DNA of 47,109 nucleotides from an uncultured Verrucomicrobiota bacterium (GTDB lineage: Bacteria; Verrucomicrobiota; Verrucomicrobiia; Limisphaerales; UBA9464): assembly GCA_903842505.1 (NCBI GenBank), contig CAIMMI010000126.1:1-47109 (forward strand), written 5' to 3'. Positions 20,595 through 31,078 of the stretch are shown here, piece by piece. Positions within the stretch are counted from its first letter, which is position 1. Each line of letters opens with the position of its first letter. Position numbers and translations under genes: made by a program. The notes beneath the pieces were generated by a model. The model made no database searches, had not been told where the DNA came from, and saw only the letters and a list, made by a program, of their open reading frames with translations.

Positions 20595-20844
20595 AGGATT
20601 CCTAATCTGTTTTCCGGTGGATGACCGAAGGCTACCCGCCATGTGGGCCGGGTCAACGCGCGATTCCAGCCGGGGTCCGCGATGCGACGCGCCGAATCGA
20701 GGGGGACATTCAATTCCGGTTGGCTGCCGCGGAGGGTTTTGGGCGGGATCCGAGGGAACGGTTTGGAATTCGCGGGGACTGGTTGCACCCTGCCCCCATG
20801 ACGAATGTGAATCTTCGACGCGGGTCCGGCATTGGCCGGGCAGG

Positions 20845-22635
20845 ATGAGACATCGTGGAACGGAGTCGGGTGCCCAGGTCGTTCGCCGCAGCACCTGGGC
20901 TGTTTCCCGCCGGGTGGCAGCCTACCTCCGCCCCTACCCCGGAATGGCCATGGCCACCGTGGGATGCGCCCTCGTGGCCCAGGCGGCCTCCTTTGCCTAC
21001 CCGAAGCTGACCCAGTACATCATCGACGATGTCCTGGGGCAGGGGCGCGCCGACCGTTTGGGCTGGGCGATCGGTGGTCTGGCGGTGGCTTACCTGTTTC
21101 GTGATGCCTTCAACAGCCTTCGGATCCGCCTCAACAACGCGTTCGAACAGGCGGTTATCCTGGATTTGCGCAAGCAGGTCTTCGGACGGTTGCAACGGCT
21201 GCCGGTAGGGTGGTTCGACCAACGGACCAGTGGCGACCTGATGACCCGGGTGATCGAGGATGTGAACGCGATGGAACGTTTGCTCATCGATGGCACCGAA
21301 CAGGGCATCGTGGCCATCGTAGGAATCGGGGGAGTCCTCGGATTCCTGTTCGCGACCAATGCTCCGCTGGCCTGGATTGCGATGGTTCCGATCCCGTTCC
21401 TCATTGGAGGCGCCGTCTGGTACACGTCGACGGCTGGCGAACGGTACCGTGACCGCTCCCGGGCCAGCAGTGCCCTGAACGCCCTGCTGATGGACAACCT
21501 GCAGGGGATCCGCCAGGTGAAGGCCTTCGGTCGTGAGTCCTACGAGGATCGCCGTTTTCATGACCGGGCCGATGCCCTCCGGCGCGGGACGCTTCGGGTG
21601 ATGCGGGCGTGGGCCTGGTACAATCCCGCCATGTCCTGGTGGGCGGCCTTGGGAACAGTCCTGGTGCTGTGGTCGGGAGGGCAACAGGTCCTTGAAGGGC
21701 GCATGACGGCGGGCGAATTGGTCGGGTTCCTCCTGTTCCTGGCCATGTTCTACCAACCGATCAACCAGTTGCATGGACTCAACCAATTGGCGCAGTCCGC
21801 CCGGGCGGCAGGCGAAAGGGTGTTCGACATCCTGGATGCCGATCCGGAGCCGATGATGGGCGTGCCGAGCCGTCCCGGTTGGCGGGCACGCGGCGAGGTT
21901 GAATTCGAGGAGGTTTCTGCCGGATATGGCGGCGGCAGGACCGTGGTTGGCGGCGTCTCCCTGCATGCTCATCCGGGGCAGGTCATCGCCTTGGTGGGGC
22001 CGACTGGCGCGGGAAAAACCACCGTCGCCAACCTGATTCCGCGCTTCCACGAGGTCGATTCCGGCACCGTCCGGGTCGACGGGGAGGATATCCGCGGAAT
22101 ATCCCTGGAGGACCTCCGGAGACAGGTCGCCTTGGTGAGCCAGGAACCGTTCCTCTTCAACGGAACGCTTCGGGAGAACATCCGGTACGGACGACTGGAG
22201 GCCACCGAGGCTGAGCTTCAGGCGGCAGTCGAAGCGGCAGATTGTCTGGGCTTCATCCACAGACTGCCTGCAGGACTCGATACCGAGGTGGGCGAACGAG
22301 GCGTCCGGTTGAGCGTCGGCGAGAAACAACGGGTCAGCATCGCCCGGGCGCTCTTGAAGGATGCGCCCATCCTGATCCTGGACGAAGCGACTGCGAGTGT
22401 GGACACGGCCACCGAGCGGACGATCCAGGCGGCCCTGGACCGATTGATGGAGAACCGGACGAGCTTCGTCATCGCGCACCGCCTCAGCACGATCCGCGAC
22501 GCGGATCAGATCCTGGTGATCCAGGGCGGAAAGATCGTGGAACGGGGGCGGCACGAGGAGCTGGTCCGTCAGGAGGGTCTGTACCAGCGATTGATTTGGG
22601 CTCAGGAAGCAACGAAAGCTTTGGAAGTCGCTTGA
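20845..22635 (+). CDS. ABC exporter, MsbA/lipid exporter-like half transporter
   Basis: This 596-residue fusion combines a six-helix transmembrane domain (about 20-310) with a nucleotide-binding domain (about 345-590). It would work as a homodimer in the inner membrane, flipping lipid, lipid-linked oligosaccharide or drugs. Walker A is GPTGAGKTT (about 385), the Q-loop is SQEPFLFNG, the signature is LSVGEKQR (about 490, with V instead of the usual G in LSGGQ), Walker B is ILILDEATASVD, and the switch His is in IAHRLSTIRDADQIL. The frame is open from 20617, but the ATG at 20845 gives normal MsbA length. It lies just upstream of the polysaccharide-export locus, so it could serve as its flippase, although lipid A export is equally possible. 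Confidence 0.93.
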   Translation: MRHRGTESGAQVVRRSTWAVSRRVAAYLRPYPGMAMATVGCALVAQAASFAYPKLTQYIIDDVLGQGRADRLGWAIGGLAVAYLFRDAFNSLRIRLNNAFEQAVILDLRKQVFGRLQRLPVGWFDQRTSGDLMTRVIEDVNAMERLLIDGTEQGIVAIVGIGGVLGFLFATNAPLAWIAMVPIPFLIGGAVWYTSTAGERYRDRSRASSALNALLMDNLQGIRQVKAFGRESYEDRRFHDRADALRRGTLRVMRAWAWYNPAMSWWAALGTVLVLWSGGQQVLEGRMTAGELVGFLLFLAMFYQPINQLHGLNQLAQSARAAGERVFDILDADPEPMMGVPSRPGWRARGEVEFEEVSAGYGGGRTVVGGVSLHAHPGQVIALVGPTGAGKTTVANLIPRFHEVDSGTVRVDGEDIRGISLEDLRRQVALVSQEPFLFNGTLRENIRYGRLEATEAELQAAVEAADCLGFIHRLPAGLDTEVGERGVRLSVGEKQRVSIARALLKDAPILILDEATASVDTATERTIQAALDRLMENRTSFVIAHRLSTIRDADQILVIQGGKIVERGRHEELVRQEGLYQRLIWAQEATKALEVA

Positions 22636-22782: not shown

Positions 22783-24006
22783 ATGAAGAAGCTAATCAAG
22801 GCAGCAGGCCTCTTGACGGCAGGCGCCGCAATCTCGACCGCCGCCTTCGCCGAAGGCCCCTACACCCTGAGTGCGGGTCTACGTGGTTTTTACGACGACA
22901 ACATTTTCACCGGCAACAACAAGGTCGACATCGACGGCGACGGGCTCGCTGATCAGCGCAAGCAGTCGAGCTTCGGCTTCGAGGTCACCCCGGGTGTCCG
23001 CTTCTCGGTGCCGTTGGACAACACGACGCTTTCCGCCGGCTACACCTACGGTCTCCGCTACTACGAGGATCGCCCGGGTCGATCCTATGACCAGTTCCAC
23101 CTGGCCGACGTGAAGGTGGACCATGCGTTCAACGAGCGCTACAAGGTCAGCCTGTTCGACAATTTCGCGGTCGCTCAGGAGCCTGAGCAGGTCGGCAGTT
23201 CCCCCGGGGCCCCCAACAGCCAGCTCCTCCGCGCCGAGGGCTCGAACCTCCGCAACACGGCGGGTGTCGACTTCACGGCTGCCCTTGCTTCCCAGTGGAG
23301 CGCCGTGCTGGGCTACCGCAACAGCTACTACGACTACGAGGCTCAGCAGTTCGGTGATTTCCTCGACCGCATCGAGCATCTTCCGTCCCTCGGTCTTCGC
23401 TACCAGTTGGACCCGAAGACGGTGACGTCGCTCAACTACCAGTACGGCGACAACAACTACAAGACGGCCAACGAGCGTGACTCGAGGTCCCACTACTTCT
23501 TCGCCGGTGTGGACCACTCGTTCACGGCCCGGTTGGTCGGTGCGGTCCGCGCTGGTGCGCAGATGATCGAGTGGGATAACGCTCAGGGCGGCCAGCGCGC
23601 TGATGCAACGAACCCGTACATTGATGCCAACCTGACCTACGCTTACAGCGAGGGCAGCACGGCCCAGTTGGGTGTTCGTCACGGCCGCAATGCGACGGAC
23701 CTCGTCGGGGTCCTCGACCAGCAGTCCACCTTGGTTTACGGCTCCATCAACCACCAGATCACGGCCCGCCTGCGTGCGTCGCTCGTCGGCCAGTACCAGA
23801 ACGCTGAGTTCGTCGGTGTGGTCGATGGCGTGGGTGCCGATGGCAGTTCGGAAAACTTCGTGTCTCTCGGGTTCACGCTGAACTACCAGATCAACACTTA
23901 CCTCTCGGCCGAAGCGGCTTACTACTTCGACCGCCTGAGCTCGAAGATCGACTTGCGCGACTACGATCGTAACCGCGTGTTTGTCGGAGTTCGCGCCACC
24001 TACTGA
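22783..24006 (+). CDS. Outer-membrane beta-barrel protein of the polysaccharide-export locus
   Basis: This 407-residue protein has a signal peptide (MKKLIKAAGLLTAGAAISTAAFA, cleaved before EGPYTL). The rest consists of alternating-hydrophobic beta strands rich in Tyr, Asn and Asp, for example SAGYTYGLRYYED, TSLNYQYGDNNY and SAEAAYYFDRLSS, ending in VGVRATY with a terminal aromatic residue, as expected for a BAM-inserted barrel. It resembles barrel proteins found beside Wzz/BY-kinase and Wza-like genes and probably forms the outer-membrane pore for the polymer. It has its own promoter (22697) and terminator (24026). No enzymatic motif is seen. The precise family name is uncertain. Confidence 0.85.
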   Translation: MKKLIKAAGLLTAGAAISTAAFAEGPYTLSAGLRGFYDDNIFTGNNKVDIDGDGLADQRKQSSFGFEVTPGVRFSVPLDNTTLSAGYTYGLRYYEDRPGRSYDQFHLADVKVDHAFNERYKVSLFDNFAVAQEPEQVGSSPGAPNSQLLRAEGSNLRNTAGVDFTAALASQWSAVLGYRNSYYDYEAQQFGDFLDRIEHLPSLGLRYQLDPKTVTSLNYQYGDNNYKTANERDSRSHYFFAGVDHSFTARLVGAVRAGAQMIEWDNAQGGQRADATNPYIDANLTYAYSEGSTAQLGVRHGRNATDLVGVLDQQSTLVYGSINHQITARLRASLVGQYQNAEFVGVVDGVGADGSSENFVSLGFTLNYQINTYLSAEAAYYFDRLSSKIDLRDYDRNRVFVGVRATY

Positions 24007-24025
24007 GCTGAAGTCGGCTCTCGAC

Positions 24026-24058
24026 GGGAGGCTGGAATTTTTTCAGCCTCCCTTTTTT
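24026..24058 (+). terminator. Rho-independent terminator between barrel gene and BY-kinase gene
   Basis: GGGAGGCTG (24026-24034) and CAGCCTCCC (24044-24052) form a perfect 9-bp stem with a 9-nt loop, followed by six T. It ends only 7 nt before the next start codon, so downstream expression depends on read-through or another promoter. Confidence 0.9.
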
Positions 24059-24065
24059 GTATCGA

Positions 24066-26282
24066 ATGGAAGCGACGCATAACCTCGCCCCGGCAGCTTC
24101 GTCGACAGACTCGAAGCTGCATTTCCTCGACTACTGGCGGATCATCCGGCTCAGGAAGGCGATCATCCTGACGGTTCTGTTTCTGGTCGTGGCCACCGTA
24201 ACTGTGGTCACCTACTTCCTGACGCCAATGTACGTGAGTACGGCGGGCATGAAGGTGGAGAAGGATACGCCGGACGTGATGGCCTTCGGTGGTATCGGGA
24301 TGCCGTCACAACCGTTCGATCCCTATTTCTTCAATACGGAGTTCGAGGTTCTCAAGTCGCACAAGATCCTGGACGAGGTCATCACCAAGCTGAACCTGAA
24401 TCAGGTTTATGCCCAGCGGTTGAAGGCTCCGGAGATCACGGTCCAGCAGGCCTACGAGATCGTTTCGCGCAATGTGGAGGTCAAGCAGCGCAAGAACACC
24501 TCGATCATTGAGATCAGTGCGTACGATCAGGACAAGAAGTTGGCTCGCGATATCGCGGACAAGGTGGCGGAGGTTTATGAGACTGAGCGGAATACGCAGC
24601 GCAACCAGCGACTGACCCGGGGGTTGACGACTCTTTCGAACAAGCTGAACGAATTGGAGAATCAGGTCACGATCGCCCAGAAGATGGTCGATGACTTGCG
24701 CAGTTCCGGCGTGGGCGATTCGGATCTGGCCTCAGAGGGCTCTCAATTGGTGAGCATGCGGGGGCAGACGATGGCGCGGTTGGATGCCAACCGGACGCAG
24801 TTACGGACGGAGGTGGTGGCCCAGGAGCAGATTGTTGCCACGGTTCGAGGTATCCAGCAGAAGGATCCGGAGGGGCTGCGCTACTTCCTCGCTTCGTCAG
24901 CGACGCTGACCACCCCGGAGTTGACGACGTTGATCGGCAGCCTGAACCAAGCCGAGCAGCAGCGGGATTCCCTCCTGACAAAGCTTGGGCCTGAGCATCC
25001 GGAGGTGAAGAACGTCCAGACGGTTTTGTCGCGTGTGAACCAGCAGATCAACCGGGAGGTTGCGGGCATCACGGCGGCGTTGGAGAGCAAGCTGCAGGGC
25101 AATCTGCGTGCGGTGGAAGACCTGCAGAAACAGATTCAGGAAGCGCGATCTGATCACGCGCGGGACATTGCCTCGGCCGCGCCTTATAGCCGGGCCAAGC
25201 AGGATCTTGAAACGAAGCAGCGGGTTCGTTCGGCGATGCAGATGGAGCTGAACCAGCAGATGATCAATGGCGAGATTTCGAGAGCCAGCTCGGTCATGAT
25301 CATCGACCACGCCTTGGTGGGACTGAATCCGGTCAAACCGAACAAGCCGGTCTATATCGCAGCGGGCGGCGTGGCTGGCTTGCTGCTGGGTTTCCTCCTC
25401 GCGTTCTTCATCGAGTATCTCGACACGAGCGTGAAGACGATCGACGACGTGGAGCAGGCGCTGGGTGCGCCGGTCCTCGGTGTCATCCCGCAGAATGTCG
25501 GTCCCCTGATCCGGGAAGGTCCGGACAGTCCGCACGCCGAAGCGTACCGGGTCCTCCGGACGAACATCCTGTTTTCGCGCAAGGATCCGAACCAGCGCAC
25601 GATGACGGTGGTTTCGGGCGGCGCCGGCGAGGGCAAGTCGACCACGATCTTCAATCTGGCGACGATCTTTGCGCAGCAGGGATCCCGGGTGCTGATTGTG
25701 GACTCCGACTTGCGGCGTCCCAGCCTGCACAAGATCCTGGAAGTCTCGAACGCGATTGGTCTGACGAACTATCTGCTTCGGCAGATGAAGTTGGACGAGG
25801 TGGTGCAGACGACGCCGCAGCCGGGCTTGGACTTCCTTCCGTCGGGCAAGCTGCCCAGCAGTTCGGTGGGCATCCTGAACTCCCAGCAGATGAAGGAGTT
25901 CATCGAGGAAGTGAAGAGCCGCTACGATTTCGTCTTCTTCGATTCACCTCCGATCATGGGTGTGTCGGACGCCTCGATCCTGGTCAGCGAGGTCGATATG
26001 GCCGTGCTGGTGGTCCAGTATCGCAAGTATCCGCAGCAGATGACGCTCCGGGCCAAGCAGATGGTCGAGAAGATCGGGGGCCCTGGCTGTCTGTTGGGCG
26101 TGGTGTTGAACAACATCAACATCTCCCAGGACAGCTACTACTACTACTACAGCGGCTACTACTACGACTACTACTCGAAGAACGACGAATCGACGCCGGA
26201 CTCCGAGAAGAAGGGTCGCAAGAAGAAGTCGGGCGGATCCTCCGGCGAACCGGACGCGGTGGAAGTGAAGCCGAAGTATTGA
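24066..26282 (+). CDS. Wzz/BY-kinase: polysaccharide co-polymerase fused to tyrosine kinase
   Basis: This 738-residue inner-membrane protein controls exopolysaccharide polymerisation and export. A Wzz domain starts near residue 18, with TM1 AIILTVLFLVVATVTVVTYF (about 32-51). A long periplasmic coiled-coil region follows (LSNKLNELENQVTIAQKMVDDL and neighbouring segments). TM2 is VYIAAGGVAGLLLGFLLAFF (about 425-445). The BY-kinase domain has Walker A GGAGEGKST (about 517-525), Walker A' VLIVDSDLRRP and Walker B FVFFDSPP. The C-terminus has ten Tyr within 16 residues (about 690-706), the usual autophosphorylation cluster, followed by a Lys/Gly tail. ATG 24066 is preferred over an in-frame TTG at 24057 inside the terminator. 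No Shine-Dalgarno is evident. Confidence 0.94.
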   Translation: MEATHNLAPAASSTDSKLHFLDYWRIIRLRKAIILTVLFLVVATVTVVTYFLTPMYVSTAGMKVEKDTPDVMAFGGIGMPSQPFDPYFFNTEFEVLKSHKILDEVITKLNLNQVYAQRLKAPEITVQQAYEIVSRNVEVKQRKNTSIIEISAYDQDKKLARDIADKVAEVYETERNTQRNQRLTRGLTTLSNKLNELENQVTIAQKMVDDLRSSGVGDSDLASEGSQLVSMRGQTMARLDANRTQLRTEVVAQEQIVATVRGIQQKDPEGLRYFLASSATLTTPELTTLIGSLNQAEQQRDSLLTKLGPEHPEVKNVQTVLSRVNQQINREVAGITAALESKLQGNLRAVEDLQKQIQEARSDHARDIASAAPYSRAKQDLETKQRVRSAMQMELNQQMINGEISRASSVMIIDHALVGLNPVKPNKPVYIAAGGVAGLLLGFLLAFFIEYLDTSVKTIDDVEQALGAPVLGVIPQNVGPLIREGPDSPHAEAYRVLRTNILFSRKDPNQRTMTVVSGGAGEGKSTTIFNLATIFAQQGSRVLIVDSDLRRPSLHKILEVSNAIGLTNYLLRQMKLDEVVQTTPQPGLDFLPSGKLPSSSVGILNSQQMKEFIEEVKSRYDFVFFDSPPIMGVSDASILVSEVDMAVLVVQYRKYPQQMTLRAKQMVEKIGGPGCLLGVVLNNINISQDSYYYYYSGYYYDYYSKNDESTPDSEKKGRKKKSGGSSGEPDAVEVKPKY

Positions 26283-26313
26283 ACGGGCGTCCGAGCAGGC
26301 AGACTACGATGGT

Positions 26314-26940
26314 ATGAGATCTTCAATTCGAAGCGGCCTTGGATACTGGTGTTCGGCCTTGGTTGCGATCATCGCAGCCTCCTGCCTCCTGTCGCTGCGT
26401 TGCGCAGCGGAGGACAAGGCTCCTTCCAAGGCCCCTGTGGCAGCGGAGAGGGGCAACGATATCCTCAACGTGGGCGACAAGGTTCGGGTGGTGTTTGACG
26501 TGCCCTTGTCGTCGGCTGGTTCACCACCGACCGAGATGCAGATCCCGGAGAACGGCGAACTCACCTTGCATCTGGGTTACAAGTTCGACTTCAAGGGCAA
26601 GCGCCGGAATGTTCTGGAGCAGGAGATTCGTTCCTTCTACGTGGACAAGGGTCTGTACAAAATCATCAACGTGACGATTGAGGTTCTGCCTCGACCGATC
26701 ACGGTGGGTGGTCAGGTTCGCATCCCGAAGGACTATCCGCATCAGGGACAGTTGACTGTCTTGAAGGCCATTGACATGGCGGGTGGCTTCACGGAGTACG
26801 CGAACACGAAGAAGGTGACCCTCATTCGCGATGGGAAGACGATCATCGTGGACTGCAAGAAGGCGCTTCAGGACCCTGCCAAATATGATGTTCCTGTGTT
26901 TCCCGGGGACAGCATCAACGTGAAGAAGGGCTGGTTCTGA
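26314..26940 (+). CDS. Short polysaccharide export (OPX/Wza-like) protein
   Basis: This 208-residue protein has a hydrophobic signal (YWCSALVAIIAASCLLSLRC). The polysaccharide-export (Poly_export) domain follows (NDILNVGDKVRVVFDVPL, IPENGELTLHLGYKFD). A single SLBB domain comes next (ITVGGQVRIPKDYPHQGQLTVLKAIDMAGGFTEYANTKKVTLIRD), quoted here only by its borders: ITVGGQVRIP to KKVTLIRDGK. The end reads PVFPGDSINVKKGWF. Full-length Wza is about 380 residues and crosses the outer membrane with a C-terminal helix; both extra SLBB domains and that helix are absent. It is therefore of the short class expected to need a partner barrel, plausibly the product of 22783-24006. Cysteines at the signal end could allow lipidation, but the lipobox is poor. 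Confidence 0.9.
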   Translation: MRSSIRSGLGYWCSALVAIIAASCLLSLRCAAEDKAPSKAPVAAERGNDILNVGDKVRVVFDVPLSSAGSPPTEMQIPENGELTLHLGYKFDFKGKRRNVLEQEIRSFYVDKGLYKIINVTIEVLPRPITVGGQVRIPKDYPHQGQLTVLKAIDMAGGFTEYANTKKVTLIRDGKTIIVDCKKALQDPAKYDVPVFPGDSINVKKGWF

Positions 26941-26975
26941 CCGCTTGCGGTCCGGGTAGGAACTGACCGTCCTAC

Positions 26976-27371
26976 ATGATCGAGCTGAAGATCGTCGCCG
27001 GCCCTGATAGTGGGCGACGCTTTGTTTTCGATTCCCTGCCGTTGCGGGTTGGGCGGTCGAAGGAGATGGATCTGGTCGTCGCCGGCCCGGGTGTCTGGGA
27101 TCATCATCTGGACCTTCAAGCCACGTCCCAAGGGCGGATCGGGATACGATCGCAGGGTGGGGCTTCGGTTTTGATCGATGGTGAGGCAGTTACCGAGGGG
27201 CCGCTTCGCAACGGAGCTGTCATCGACTTGGCGGGAGCCCGCATCCGCTTCGCGATTTCGCCGGGTGAGCAGCGTTCATTGGTCGGTCGCGAGCGGCTGT
27301 TTTGGTTGGCCGCTGCGGTTCTGGTTGGTGTGCAGGTGACGCTATTGGTCGCGACGGGACTTCGATCCTGA
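26976..27371 (+). CDS. FHA-domain protein with C-terminal membrane anchor
   Basis: This 131-residue protein begins directly with a forkhead-associated domain: LKIVAGPDSGRRFVF, LRVGRSKEMDLVV (the Gly-Arg-Ser binding loop), VWDHHLDLQ (in place of the usual S-x-x-H) and VLIDGEAVTEGPLRNGAVIDL, over about residues 3-95. It ends with one transmembrane helix (LFWLAAAVLVGVQVTLLVAT, about 108-127). FHA domains bind phosphothreonine peptides. The protein follows the OPX gene by 35 nt on the same strand and may sense phosphorylation at the membrane near the exporter. The substitution in the second binding loop makes phospho-binding uncertain. Confidence 0.85.
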   Translation: MIELKIVAGPDSGRRFVFDSLPLRVGRSKEMDLVVAGPGVWDHHLDLQATSQGRIGIRSQGGASVLIDGEAVTEGPLRNGAVIDLAGARIRFAISPGEQRSLVGRERLFWLAAAVLVGVQVTLLVATGLRS

Positions 27372-27395: not shown

Positions 27396-28520
27396 TTAGC
27401 CGTCGGACGGGAGTGTCCGCGAGCCCTGCTCCGTCAGTACGTTGTTCACCAAGTCCAGCCATTGCAGGCTGAGGATCTCGTAGGAGCAGTTCCGCTGCGC
27501 AATCCCGGGCAAGGTTTGCCGGACGTCGAGGGAGGCGGGATTGCTGACCAGATGGCGAATGCGCTCGGCAAGCCGTGTGGGGTAAGCGTCGTCGACCTCT
27601 CCGTCGTAGGGCACGAGCATGGATTCGGGCAGGAGGACCGCAGCATCTCCAACCTGGCTGGCGAGGATGAAGCATCCGGCGGCCATGTATTCCGGGATCT
27701 TGCCGGTGGTGCGGACCTGCCCGGGCAGGTTGTTGGTCTGGGTGGAGAGGGCGACGTCGAGAAGACGCATGTAGGTGGGAACCTCCGCGTAGGGAATCCT
27801 GCCCGTGAAGACGATGCGATCCTGGACTCCCTGACGGCGGGCTTCCTCGTGAAGCCAAGGCTGTCCATTGCCATCCCCGATGAGCACTGCGGTGACCGGG
27901 AGGTCGCGGAGTGCGGTCATGGCTCGGATGAGGTCCCATCCGTAGCAGATCTGGAGTCTGGGGCTCCAGACCTGGGATCCCATGAGTCCGACCACGAACC
28001 GGCCGCCCAGCCCAAGTCGGGTGCGGAGAGCTTCGACCGCGCCTGGAGGCACGGATTGCTGTTCCGCGTAACCATCGAGGATCCGCGCTGCGGGGAGGCC
28101 CTTTTGCTGAAGGTACTCGGCATGGCGGGTTCCCCGGACAACGATCCTGGAGGCGGTTCGCCAGGCGGACTGCTCGATCATCCACAGCAAGGGGAGCCGC
28201 CAACCGGCTCCGATCCCTGAGCGACGGGCCATTTCGAAGATGACGTCCCCGGTGTCCAGGAGGAATGGCAAGCCTGAGAACCGTCGGCGCCAAACCGCCA
28301 TCGGCGCGCCTGGCAGGGCAGTGTTGAGGACGTAGAGAAGGTCGGGATGTCCCGCCTGCAGCGCCTGTTTCCATCGGCGGGCGGTCTCGGAGCGTGAGCC
28401 TTCACGGAACAGGAATTCGACGGAGCCAGAGGGAGCCCGTTGAGTGAGACCGCGAGCGCGAACGGCCTCGATGCTGTTCGGGCTGCCGTGAACGAGAACT
28501 GTGACCTTGGGCAAGCTCAC
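27396..28520 (-). CDS. Glycosyltransferase family 1/4-like protein
   Basis: This is a 374-residue GT-B fold enzyme. The N-terminal domain has VTVLVHGSPNSIEAVRARG and GLPFLLDTGDVIFE. The C-terminal domain has FVVGLMGSQVWSPRLQ, VTAVLIGDGNGQP, DRIVFTGRIPYAEVPTYM and the donor-binding part TTGKIPEYMAAGCFILAS, with the acidic residue of the usual E-x7-E motif partly retained. The start codon is GTG at 28518-28520, whose bases overlap the stop of the upstream glycosyltransferase (GTGA), so the pair is translationally coupled. The role is presumably assembly of the exopolysaccharide or lipopolysaccharide. Sugar specificity is unknown. It converges with the FHA gene, 24 nt apart. Confidence 0.88.
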   Translation of the reverse strand: MSLPKVTVLVHGSPNSIEAVRARGLTQRAPSGSVEFLFREGSRSETARRWKQALQAGHPDLLYVLNTALPGAPMAVWRRRFSGLPFLLDTGDVIFEMARRSGIGAGWRLPLLWMIEQSAWRTASRIVVRGTRHAEYLQQKGLPAARILDGYAEQQSVPPGAVEALRTRLGLGGRFVVGLMGSQVWSPRLQICYGWDLIRAMTALRDLPVTAVLIGDGNGQPWLHEEARRQGVQDRIVFTGRIPYAEVPTYMRLLDVALSTQTNNLPGQVRTTGKIPEYMAAGCFILASQVGDAAVLLPESMLVPYDGEVDDAYPTRLAERIRHLVSNPASLDVRQTLPGIAQRNCSYEILSLQWLDLVNNVLTEQGSRTLPSDG

Positions 28521-29623
28521 TGGGTGGATCGCTCGGCGTGGATGGCCCTGTAGATCTTCAAGACCTCGTCGGCGTTGTGATCCCAGGAGGTGGCAATAGC
28601 CGTCTCGCGGCCTGCCTGTCCCAGCCGGGCAGCCAGCTTCGGGTCGGCGCGCAAACGGGAGAGTTGGGATCGGATCGAGTCCGCTTCCTGCGGCTTGCAG
28701 AGGAGGCCGTTGATCCCGTCCTGGACGAGTTCGGCAACTCCGATCGAGTCGCCGAGCACGACAGGAATGCTGGAGGCCATGGCTTCGGATCCGACCATTC
28801 CGAAAGGGTCGTAATCGCTGGGATACACGAAGACGTCGACAGCCCGGAAGGCGAGTTCCGGGTGAGCTTCATAGCCCCAGAAGGTGATGCGATTGAGGAC
28901 GCCGAGTGAGCGGGCCAGTTCCCGATACTTGGCGGGCTCCGAGCGGGAGATGACTAGGAGGTGGGCTTCCCGGAAGAAGGGCAACTGCTGGATTACCTGG
29001 TTGAGGCCCTTCACGGCTTCGCCAACAAACAGCCAATGCCAATGATTGGCCGGAAGTCGGAACCGGGCCTTGAGCTCAGCGAGCTCGCCGGCGTTGGCGG
29101 GGGGGCGGAACTGGTCCGTGTTGGTCCCGTGATGCAACACCGCGGTGGCCTTGTTCCATCCGTACTCCGCGCGTATTTCCTCCGCGAGACACCTGGAAAT
29201 CGCGATGAGGTGCGAGGCGCGTCGTTGGCGGTAGAACGCCCGTTCCAGAGGCGTGACCATCTGGATGAACCAGCGGGCCCTGTGGCGATGGATTGCCATG
29301 GAGCGGGCGCGGGCCGCGTTGCAGATGTGTCCGGTGATCACATCTGCGCTCCAGCCTGTGAGGCCCTGTGCGTGGATGACGTCCGGTTTGTCCCGGCGCA
29401 GCAGACGTTCGGCGGCAGGCAGGAAGCTGAGGACCGTTGTGAGGACGTTCCAGCGGATGGCGGGGACCTTGACCCAGCGGACGTGCTGGACATCGGGTGC
29501 GTTGAACGTGTTTGCGTAGACGGTGAACTCGCACTTGCCGGCGAGTCGCCTTGCGATCTCGACGCCGTAGCGGCCCTGGCCGAAGTTGGCGTCGAAGTCG
29601 TGGACGACGAAGGCGACTTTCAT
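28517..29623 (-). CDS. Glycosyltransferase family 4 protein
   Basis: This is a 368-residue GT-B enzyme. N-terminal acceptor-domain motifs are VAFVVHDFDANFGQGRYGVEIA and KPDVIHAQGLTGWSADV (each quoted in part). The C-terminal donor domain has HWLFVGEAVKGLNQVI, LLVISRSEPAKYRELA, ITFWGYEAHPELAFRAVDV and the E-x7-E-like site YPSDYDPFGMVGSEAMASS. The frame is open to 29698, but the family fold starts at MKVAFVVHDF, so the ATG at 29623 is chosen. It is the first gene of the coupled glycosyltransferase pair and divergent from glgC, with 159 nt between. Substrate is unknown. Confidence 0.92.
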   Translation of the reverse strand: MKVAFVVHDFDANFGQGRYGVEIARRLAGKCEFTVYANTFNAPDVQHVRWVKVPAIRWNVLTTVLSFLPAAERLLRRDKPDVIHAQGLTGWSADVITGHICNAARARSMAIHRHRARWFIQMVTPLERAFYRQRRASHLIAISRCLAEEIRAEYGWNKATAVLHHGTNTDQFRPPANAGELAELKARFRLPANHWHWLFVGEAVKGLNQVIQQLPFFREAHLLVISRSEPAKYRELARSLGVLNRITFWGYEAHPELAFRAVDVFVYPSDYDPFGMVGSEAMASSIPVVLGDSIGVAELVQDGINGLLCKPQEADSIRSQLSRLRADPKLAARLGQAGRETAIATSWDHNADEVLKIYRAIHAERSTQ

Positions 29624-29782
29624 GGGGTGAAGGGCGGCTGCGATGATCGGCAACGGAGCATTTGGGGCGAGGTTGGGCTTCGGAGGAAGGGGAGGCAATA
29701 GCCACTATTTGGGCGGGAATGGAGGGTCACCGGGCTTGAGTGAAGTTCGACGCTGGCGTAGAAGGAGGGACAAGACCTTTCT

Positions 29783-31078
29783 ATGTCTCCCAATCGTTCA
29801 TCGTATCTGGCGCAGCAGACTCTCGGCATCATCATGGGTGGCGGGCAGGGGACCCGCCTGTTTCCCCTGACGCGGGAACGCTCGAAGCCAGCGACTCCCT
29901 TGGCGGGCAAGTACCGACTGGTCGACATCCCGATTTCGAACTGCATCAACTCGGGCATCACGCGGATGTACCTGTTGACCCAGTTCAACTCTGCGTCGCT
30001 GCATCGCCACATCTCCCAGAGCTTCAAGTTTGACCATTTCAACGGTGGGTTTGTGGAGATCCTGGCTGCGGAGCAGACCTTCTCGAACACGTCCTGGTAC
30101 CAAGGAACGGCAGATGCGGTTCGAAAGAATCTGGTCCACTTCAGGAACAACGATTTCGCGTATGCGCTGATCCTGTCCGGTGACCAACTTTACCAGATGG
30201 ACTTCAGCGACATTGTGCGGGCGCACGTCGAGAAGTCGGCCGACCTGACCATCGCCACGCTGCCTGTTCCGGCTCGGGAGGCAGGAGCGTTGGGGATTCT
30301 TGAAATGAACGGCGAGAACCGCATCACCCGGTTCGTTGAAAAGCCGAAGGAACCGGCGGTCCTGGAATCGCTGCGGTTGGACCGTGGGCAGTACGGGCCG
30401 CTGGGGATTTCGAGTCAGGATGACCTGTATCTGGCTTCGATGGGCATCTACGTCTTCAACCGGGACGTCCTCTTTGAGTTGCTGAACAACAGCCTGACCG
30501 ACTTCGGGAAGCACATCATCCCCGGCGCCATCAGTTCGCACCGGGTGTTTTCCTATGTGTTCCAGGGCTACTGGGAGGACATCGGGACGATCCGGAGCTT
30601 CTTTGACGCGAATCTGGACCAGGCCGCGGACCATCCGAAGTTCAACTTCTTCACACCCCCGGTCTTCACACGTCCCCGCTTCCTGCCGGCGTCCAAGCTG
30701 AACGGTGCGGCCATCGACCATGCGGTGATCGCCGACGGCTGCATCATCAACAATGCCCGGATCCAGCATGCGGTGATTGGGGTTCGCTCGATGCTGCAGG
30801 AAGGCTGCTTCCTGAACCGGGTGGTGATGATGGGGGCGGACTACTTCGATACACCGGCTCGGAGTTCCAAGCCGGAAAACCTCGGGATCCCGGTGGGTGT
30901 CGGGGCCGGCACCCGGATCGAGAACGCGATCATCGACAAGAACGCGCGAATCGGTGAGGCCTGTGTGCTGTCGCCTGCGGGGAAGCCCGAGAACTTTGAC
31001 CACCCCCTCTACTACATCCGGGACGGGATCCTGATCGTCCCGAAGAACGGGGTCATTCCGCCGGGTACGATCGTGTGA
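29783..31078 (+). CDS. glgC: Glucose-1-phosphate adenylyltransferase
   Basis: This enzyme makes ADP-glucose from ATP and glucose 1-phosphate, the committed step of glycogen synthesis. The 431-residue length is standard. The nucleotidyltransferase domain shows IIMGGGQGTRLFPLTRERSKPA, VDIPISNCINSGI, QGTADAVRKNL, LILSGDQLYQMD and EKPKEP (each a known GlgC block, quoted in part). The C-terminal left-handed helix has ADGCIINNARIQHAVIG and AGTRIENAIIDKNARIG, ending NGVIPPGTIV. GGAGGG lies about 14 nt upstream of the ATG. Other glycogen genes are not in the window. It is next to two glycosyltransferases on the opposite strand. Confidence 0.97.
   Translation: MSPNRSSYLAQQTLGIIMGGGQGTRLFPLTRERSKPATPLAGKYRLVDIPISNCINSGITRMYLLTQFNSASLHRHISQSFKFDHFNGGFVEILAAEQTFSNTSWYQGTADAVRKNLVHFRNNDFAYALILSGDQLYQMDFSDIVRAHVEKSADLTIATLPVPAREAGALGILEMNGENRITRFVEKPKEPAVLESLRLDRGQYGPLGISSQDDLYLASMGIYVFNRDVLFELLNNSLTDFGKHIIPGAISSHRVFSYVFQGYWEDIGTIRSFFDANLDQAADHPKFNFFTPPVFTRPRFLPASKLNGAAIDHAVIADGCIINNARIQHAVIGVRSMLQEGCFLNRVVMMGADYFDTPARSSKPENLGIPVGVGAGTRIENAIIDKNARIGEACVLSPAGKPENFDHPLYYIRDGILIVPKNGVIPPGTIV

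Follow-up and report, generated by a model that had tools for sequence, protein, structure and literature searches.

The analysis of a 47,109-nucleotide stretch of DNA from an uncultured Verrucomicrobiota bacterium (order Limisphaerales, UBA9464; GenBank assembly GCA_903842505.1, contig CAIMMI010000126.1, hereafter the window) identified a set of four genes that probably forms the exporting part of an exopolysaccharide pathway, of the OPX/beta-barrel or 'third' type, in which a short outer membrane polysaccharide export (OPX) protein is combined with a separate beta-barrel. Four open reading frames (ORFs) were confirmed consecutively on the forward strand, encoding an outer-membrane beta-barrel of 407 aa as the proposed export channel (22783-24006), a Wzc-like polysaccharide co-polymerase (PCP) fused to a bacterial tyrosine kinase (BY-kinase; 24066-26282), a short OPX protein of 208 aa (26314-26940), and a 131-aa protein with a forkhead-associated (FHA)-like domain (26976-27371). 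The gap between the barrel and PCP genes contained a terminator-like RNA hairpin with a U-tract (24026-24058). Composite translocons made of an OPX protein and a beta-barrel have been published (Schwabe 2022; Saidi 2022; PMC9601211, PMC9603273). The core of the set is a member of this system type, to which the FHA-like protein and the hairpin are additions found here.

The barrel protein matched the Pfam family BBP2_2 (PF10082) with 58.1 bits against a cut-off of 23.7. The AlphaFold2 model, obtained with a 77-sequence input, showed 18 strands with a predicted local distance difference test score (pLDDT) of 87.7 and a predicted template-modelling score (pTM) of 0.84, and was poor at residues 1-22 and 134-148. 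A Foldseek search with this model gave OccAB4 as the first hit and AlgE as the fourth, and VIA-align placed AlgE first (Z 19.8, root-mean-square deviation 5.2 over 309 residues) in a tie with the OprD/Occ porins. As modelled, the channel class fits AlgE. With 18 strands in the model and a gene located two genes upstream of the OPX gene, the barrel lies within the definition of a composite translocon, namely at least 16 strands and a position within five genes.

The OPX protein matched SLBB with 38 bits, above the cut-off of 27. Its SLBB_2 match extended to residue 203 of 208, and there is therefore no room for a Wza-type helix. A profile of 39 OPX sequences gave its best alignment to Wza (2j58) at residues 66-230, which we take to be domains D1 and D2, and aligned over the full length with the solved 186-residue OPX protein 9n9a, while a weak further match (6.6 bits) was to an additional Wza domain in 9xgv. 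The window protein consists of D1 and D2 only and is shorter than the upper limit of 280 aa applied to OPX proteins of composite translocons. No match to Wza_C (PF18412) was detected in the genome that contains the window (assembly 95.6% complete), and the E. coli control was positive. Judged from its sequence, the window protein would fall outside the Class 1 OPX proteins (Wza), for which Wza_C is the criterion. The lipobox Cys, in sites judged by eye, was kept in 57 of 66 sequences, and the protein may well be a lipoprotein in most homologues.

The PCP contained Wzz, GNVR and AAA_31 domains, matched the BY-kinase model TIGR01007 with 167.8 bits (cut-off 108), and matched the solved Wzc structure 7nhr with an E-value of 2.3e-33. 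The listed ORF starts with TTG at 24057, and the conserved start was ATG at 24066, corresponding to M4 of the listed ORF, which was kept in 66 of 66 sequences including the window. Equally invariant were K527 of Walker A and the tyrosines Y695-698, a cluster numbered here on the listed 741-aa ORF, and the final two residues, Lys-Tyr (26274-26279), were conserved in 60 and 56 of the 66 sequences, respectively. The AlphaFold2 model (pLDDT 80.9) contained helices of 57 and 93 residues, compatible with the long periplasmic reach proposed for the PCP partners of D1D2 OPX proteins in the text of PMC9601211. The Shine-Dalgarno core was found in none of 96 distinct PCP leaders. Its absence was rejected as a PCP-specific trait, as the OPX and FHA leaders were also near chance (13 of 117 against 13.5 in shuffled sequences, and 16 of 105 against 11.1).

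An earlier note on this DNA, made from the letters alone, had described a 407-residue beta-barrel in the same locus as a 208-residue OPX protein without the outer-membrane helix, with the barrel, Wzz/BY-kinase, OPX and FHA genes adjacent. All of these statements held, and the gene order was kept in homologous loci. The conserved hairpin and the unusual character of the FHA protein had escaped the note. The note had also named two outcomes that would count against it, and neither was found: the barrel was modelled not as a small closed barrel but as the 18-stranded AlgE-like one, and no full-length Wza appeared elsewhere in the assembly.

The set was conserved across the order. A barrel-type match was present in 71 of the 78 genomes searched, counting the genome of the window, and covered 38 of 40 genera, one of the matches (G059, locus L104) being of a second type described below. 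Among 70 fetched homologous loci (the relative loci), 61 were complete in the sense that all four genes were found, and since all 61 had the genes on a single strand in the order barrel-PCP-OPX-FHA, closely spaced or overlapping, the adjacency is not due to chance. The nine incomplete loci comprised five truncated by contig ends (L045, L082, L099, L101, L102), three without an FHA match (L053, L054, L066) and L104. All four genes were also found, always colinear, in 71 loci of a named set of 80, the titles of which were nearly all Verrucomicrobia, Pedosphaera or Limisphaerales, with one Omnitrophota; L174 had no FHA gene despite spare sequence, and the other eight exceptions were at or near the locus end. 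The named and relative sets overlap, with the same contigs occurring in both.

The distribution of the barrel and OPX genes was then compared over 194 genomes of the phylum, where OPX matches were found in at least 143 genomes and barrel matches in 76. All OPX matches of at least 100 bits and part of those below 100 bits were entered in this tally, and the second piece was left out for the barrels found in two pieces (G222, G242 and G257). OPX matches of at least 100 bits occurred in 65 genomes, 59 of which had a barrel match, and the barrel was located 2.2-3.1 kb from this OPX gene on the same strand in 48 of the 65. When viewed from the barrel, 51 of the 52 genomes with a match of at least 60 bits had an OPX match of at least 100 bits, and in the exception, G255, an OPX match scored 83 bits and lay about 2.4 kb away from the barrel. 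The barrel gene was apart from the OPX gene in eleven genomes. In the ten of these that were fetched, the barrel gene was followed by the PCP gene in nine, and the OPX gene had neither a barrel nor a PCP gene in the fetched stretch in all ten. The separation in the eleventh (G225) may be an assembly effect, with the OPX gene at a contig end, and the two genes in G157, counted as separated, were only about 13 kb apart. No p-value was assigned to the co-occurrence because related genomes are not independent. The phylogenetic co-occurrence of the barrel with short OPX proteins, which the earlier note had named as a check, was thus seen in 51 of 52 genomes, including the ten with the genes apart. 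The note's reading of the short OPX protein as dependent on a partner barrel, like those of myxobacteria, therefore has support from the parts and from genomics.

A second set was found in the same genome on contig C345 (L034, 8586-12808), arranged as barrel-OPX-PCP and flanked by DUF1501/PSCyt genes and mutS. It comprised a BBP2_2 barrel (30.3 bits), an OPX protein of 207 aa as counted from the chosen start (open frame of 301; Poly_export match of 69.4 bits), and a PCP of 717 aa that has Wzz and AAA domains. At E ≤ 0.001, Poly_export matched no protein of the genome other than this OPX protein. No FHA gene was found among the ORFs scanned around the second set.

In the window, a scan detected a 12-bp stem followed by six U residues at 24026-24052 in the gap between the barrel and PCP genes. 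A hairpin with a folding energy of at most -8 kcal/mol preceded a T-tract in 114 of 115 distinct barrel-PCP gaps, compared with 10 on average and 17 at most in mononucleotide shuffles. When 60-nt segments were examined, the hairpin was found before the PCP gene in 111 of 114 cases, before the OPX gene in 6 of 119, before the FHA gene in 19 of 107, before the barrel gene in 7 of 116 and after the FHA gene in 5 of 107. The window hairpin folded at z = -4.57. An alignment of 77 sequences was constructed from the window and 76 of the 80 named loci, omitting L126, L152 and L185 (no PCP start) and L173 (a duplicate of L166), with the alignment windows for L148 and L175 moved upstream by hand. In this alignment 94.5% of the cells paired, 8 of the 11 pairs changed on both sides, and the two-sided changes amounted to 47 cells against 7.9 in shuffles. 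The pairwise identity was 87% in the 5' arm and 77% in the 3' arm, compared with 28% in the upstream flank and 31% in the loop, which we read as a possible additional sequence constraint on the 5' arm.

The covariance model found the hairpin in 77 of the 80 named loci (missing in L141, L152 and L185) and in 67 of the 70 relative loci (missing in L093, L096 and L104), although the latter search is not an independent test because the two collections share contigs. Every match was located at the barrel-PCP junction, two being reverse-strand readings of the same palindrome. The model did not find the hairpin in 20 loci outside the order, nine of them with a barrel-PCP junction, and a search of Rfam returned four matches up to E 10, none at the gathering score. 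A generic terminator repeated through these genomes was rejected within the sequence searched, as no match off the junction was found at E ≤ 0.1 in 1.29 Mb of named and 0.82 Mb of relative loci; one 23-bit look-alike (E 0.011) was present in the pieces of the genome of the window (L107:15400-15454). A DNA operator instead of an RNA hairpin was disfavoured, as one pair was G-U in 48 of the 77 sequences and another was U-G in 20, and a U-tract follows. The G+C-rich stem followed by the U-tract has the form of a terminator, and the element is probably an attenuator acting after the barrel gene.

The fourth protein matched Pfam FHA with 27.6 bits (cut-off 20.7), and was outscored by Yop-YscD_cpl with 31.9 bits, though this is below the cut-off of 33.2 for that family. 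In 61 aligned sequences (the window and 60 others), G26, G39, H44 and G80 were invariant and R27 was kept in 56. The Ser of the S-x-x-H motif, which contacts the phosphate of phosphothreonine, was replaced by Trp in 58 of the 61, and the profile aligned this Trp with the Ser of GVSRRH in the solved TB39.8. The protein thus keeps the G-R motif and the invariant His and has lost the phosphothreonine-contacting Ser. A C-terminal hydrophobic stretch, judged by eye, is probably a membrane segment, and because of this stretch and the higher Yop-YscD_cpl score, a role as a membrane scaffold is suggested. Matches to the FHA profile were frequent in the phylum (at least 129 of the 194 genomes), most of them generic. 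Among the matches listed outside the order none was directly 3' of an OPX gene, and three were near a set: a frame of 171 aa on the opposite strand, about 0.9 kb in front of the barrel (G172), a 581-aa frame about 3.9 kb before the barrel on the opposite strand (G124) and a 515-aa frame about 7 kb past the OPX gene (G254). No FHA match at E ≤ 1e-4 was obtained in 20 loci outside the order (L203-L222), so that the linked FHA gene looks restricted to the order. Within the order, the protein seems dispensable in some genera because the three relative loci noted above had no FHA match 3' of the OPX gene, little sequence being left there in L054.

Several observations weigh against the assignment of the set to OPX/beta-barrel export. 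The barrel fold by itself fits an uptake porin of the OprD type as well as a polymer exporter, and it does not settle direction or substrate. The Poly_export match of the window OPX protein was 22.5 bits, under the cut-off of 28, its lipobox (S23-C24) was less typical than that of most homologues, with an alternative SPI-like site seen by eye, and the pTM of the PCP model was 0.44. The terminator-like sites in the region were at chance (4 against 4.3 in shuffles, with no promoter-like site), and the case for the hairpin is therefore the comparative one. With a terminator after the barrel gene, more barrel than OPX protein would be expected, and one barrel per OPX octamer would need the reverse. 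Six of the 65 phylum genomes with an OPX match of at least 100 bits showed no barrel match, and the synthesis genes are unlinked, so that the locus does not identify the polymer.

These six genomes, the structural tie between AlgE and the OprD/Occ uptake porins, and a hairpin that parts the barrel from the PCP-OPX-FHA genes, as would suit an abundant porin, agree with the alternative of an ordinary porin for diffusion or uptake that stands beside an export cluster by chance, with the short OPX protein using another partner. We consider this unlikely, as the barrel remained linked to the PCP gene where the OPX gene had moved away (9 of 10), the barrel and OPX genes co-occurred in nearly all genomes with a strong barrel match, and in the second set, too, a BBP2_2 barrel accompanies a short OPX protein and a PCP.

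The genes for polymer synthesis were found elsewhere. No Pfam match to the priming transferase, Wzx or Wzy families was detected among the 30 window ORFs scanned, a subset of those in the window, and to that extent the absence of these genes from the window noted earlier was upheld. In the same genome, contig C226 (L107, 4346-8612) carried an exosortase gene, an EpsI-like DUF3485 gene, a priming transferase gene and a sugar epimerase gene in a row; a second transferase was encoded on C316, and three Wzy_C matches were above the cut-off. No Wzx was found at E ≤ 0.001 with PF01943, the one flippase family searched. An MsbA-like ABC exporter encoded immediately 5' of the barrel gene (20617-22635), in a position kept in 13 of the 70 relative loci (above 700 bits), is a possible lipid-linked sugar flippase, being considered because PF01943 flippases were not found in the genome. 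On the 3' side (27396-31078) there were two convergent GT4 glycosyltransferase genes and glgC, kept in 6 of 8 same-genus loci. Exosortase was present in at least 74 and priming transferase in at least 76 of the 78 genomes, and, judged by eye, many of the genomes listed had matches to the two as near neighbours on a single contig. The distant synthesis genes may make the exported polymer.

The frequency of exosortase, and its grouping with the EpsI-like and priming transferase genes, also agree with a second alternative, in which the barrel and OPX protein serve a different envelope polymer or an exosortase/PEP-CTERM-linked anchoring of a protein-glycan and not bulk exopolysaccharide export. 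The best NCBIfam match of the barrel was EpsL (TIGR03014) of the XrtB/PEP-CTERM clusters, together with weak matches to other PEP-CTERM-associated barrel models, and the OPX protein matched EpsE (TIGR03028) and the PCP matched EpsF (TIGR03017) and EpsG (TIGR03029). All four matches were far under the cut-offs (42.1 against 275, 28 against 263, 102 against 423 and 99 against 314 bits, respectively), and by the curated cut-off the barrel would not be classed as an EpsL equivalog. The name of the EpsL model itself refers to polysaccharide biosynthesis, and in contrast to the XrtB/PEP-CTERM clusters, no exosortase or priming transferase was found in the window. When the exosortase, the EpsI-like protein and the two transferases of this genome were used as single-sequence queries, none was found in the fetched flanks of 150 loci, although this search was not exhaustive, as it missed an exosortase of G057 inside L073. 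The latter (PF09721, about 260-1010) was about 7 kb from the barrel gene, and an exosortase relative in G211 was about 3.3 kb from the OPX gene (L216, 9496-11430). These two cases hint at a linkage between exosortase and the export set, either in the past or in some present genomes. Because such a link fits both OPX/beta-barrel export and this alternative, it left our assessment unchanged, and we consider the anchoring role even less probable than the porin.

The known systems closest to the core are EpsX/EpsY/EpsV of Myxococcus and VpsM/VpsN of Vibrio in PMC9601211, the text of which describes 18-stranded barrels closest to AlgE, D1D2 OPX proteins and their coupling in 10 phyla. The 18-strand AlgE-like barrel, the D1D2 OPX protein, the PCP and the linkage are shared. 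In contrast, the verrucomicrobial set contains the FHA-like protein and the conserved intergenic hairpin in addition, the PCP gene is placed between the barrel and OPX genes, and the synthesis genes are unlinked in the genome studied. The barrel belongs to BBP2_2 and is likened to EpsX/ExoB/WzpB and VpsM by fold and context, not by the sequence models of those proteins. The Class 3 OPX proteins defined in PMC9603273, which occur with Wzp porins, share Poly_export and SLBB, the lack of Wza_C and a linked 18-strand porin, and homologues of MXAN_7418/3226/1916 are reported in that text only from myxobacterial genomes. The legend of the survey figure in PMC9601211 covers the PVC superphylum, while the string 'Verrucomicrob' does not occur in the main texts of the two papers, figures and supplements aside. 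Published titles and abstract openings, mainly of the open literature, yielded no description of this system in Verrucomicrobiota or of the FHA partner. For the hairpin, the literature on attenuators and NusG paralogs provided analogues only. In the colanic acid operon of E. coli, a stem-loop attenuator is reported downstream of wzc (PMC2516531), and one has been predicted in a Klebsiella cps cluster (PMC3438125). A terminator-like stem-loop inside a polysaccharide export or synthesis cluster is common to these and the present case, whereas here it lies between the barrel and PCP genes and is conserved in sequence across the order.

Taken as OPX/beta-barrel export machinery, the set would work as follows. 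The Wzz/BY-kinase PCP would span the inner membrane and reach into the periplasm, the short OPX protein would form a two-tier ring beneath the outer membrane, and the 18-stranded barrel would supply the outer-membrane channel that Wza makes with its own helices. The membrane-bound FHA-like protein would dock at the cytoplasmic kinase side, where it would probably act as scaffold or regulator rather than read phosphothreonine. The hairpin and U-tract would probably attenuate transcription, so that the mRNA of the barrel exceeds that of PCP-OPX-FHA, and the exosortase, EpsI-like, priming transferase and Wzy-like genes would be supplied from elsewhere in the genome. A more tentative idea, which we regard as possible but less likely than not, is that the translocon has evolved into a regulated module in the order, in which a sequence-specific, possibly factor-bound RNA attenuator adjusts the output of the barrel relative to PCP-OPX-FHA. 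In this module, the membrane FHA-like protein, its pocket repurposed with Trp, would couple the BY-kinase ring to an inner-membrane partner, as an SctD-like scaffold that no longer reads phosphothreonine.

With these results, OPX/beta-barrel export would be extended to a large order, most of it uncultured, where the set seems to be present in nearly every genome. More than 100 orthologous loci are now available for co-folding and coevolution tests. The FHA protein without the phosphothreonine site and the conserved hairpin, linked to the set only within the order so far, may offer testable handles on the balance between barrel and ring and on the control of the system.

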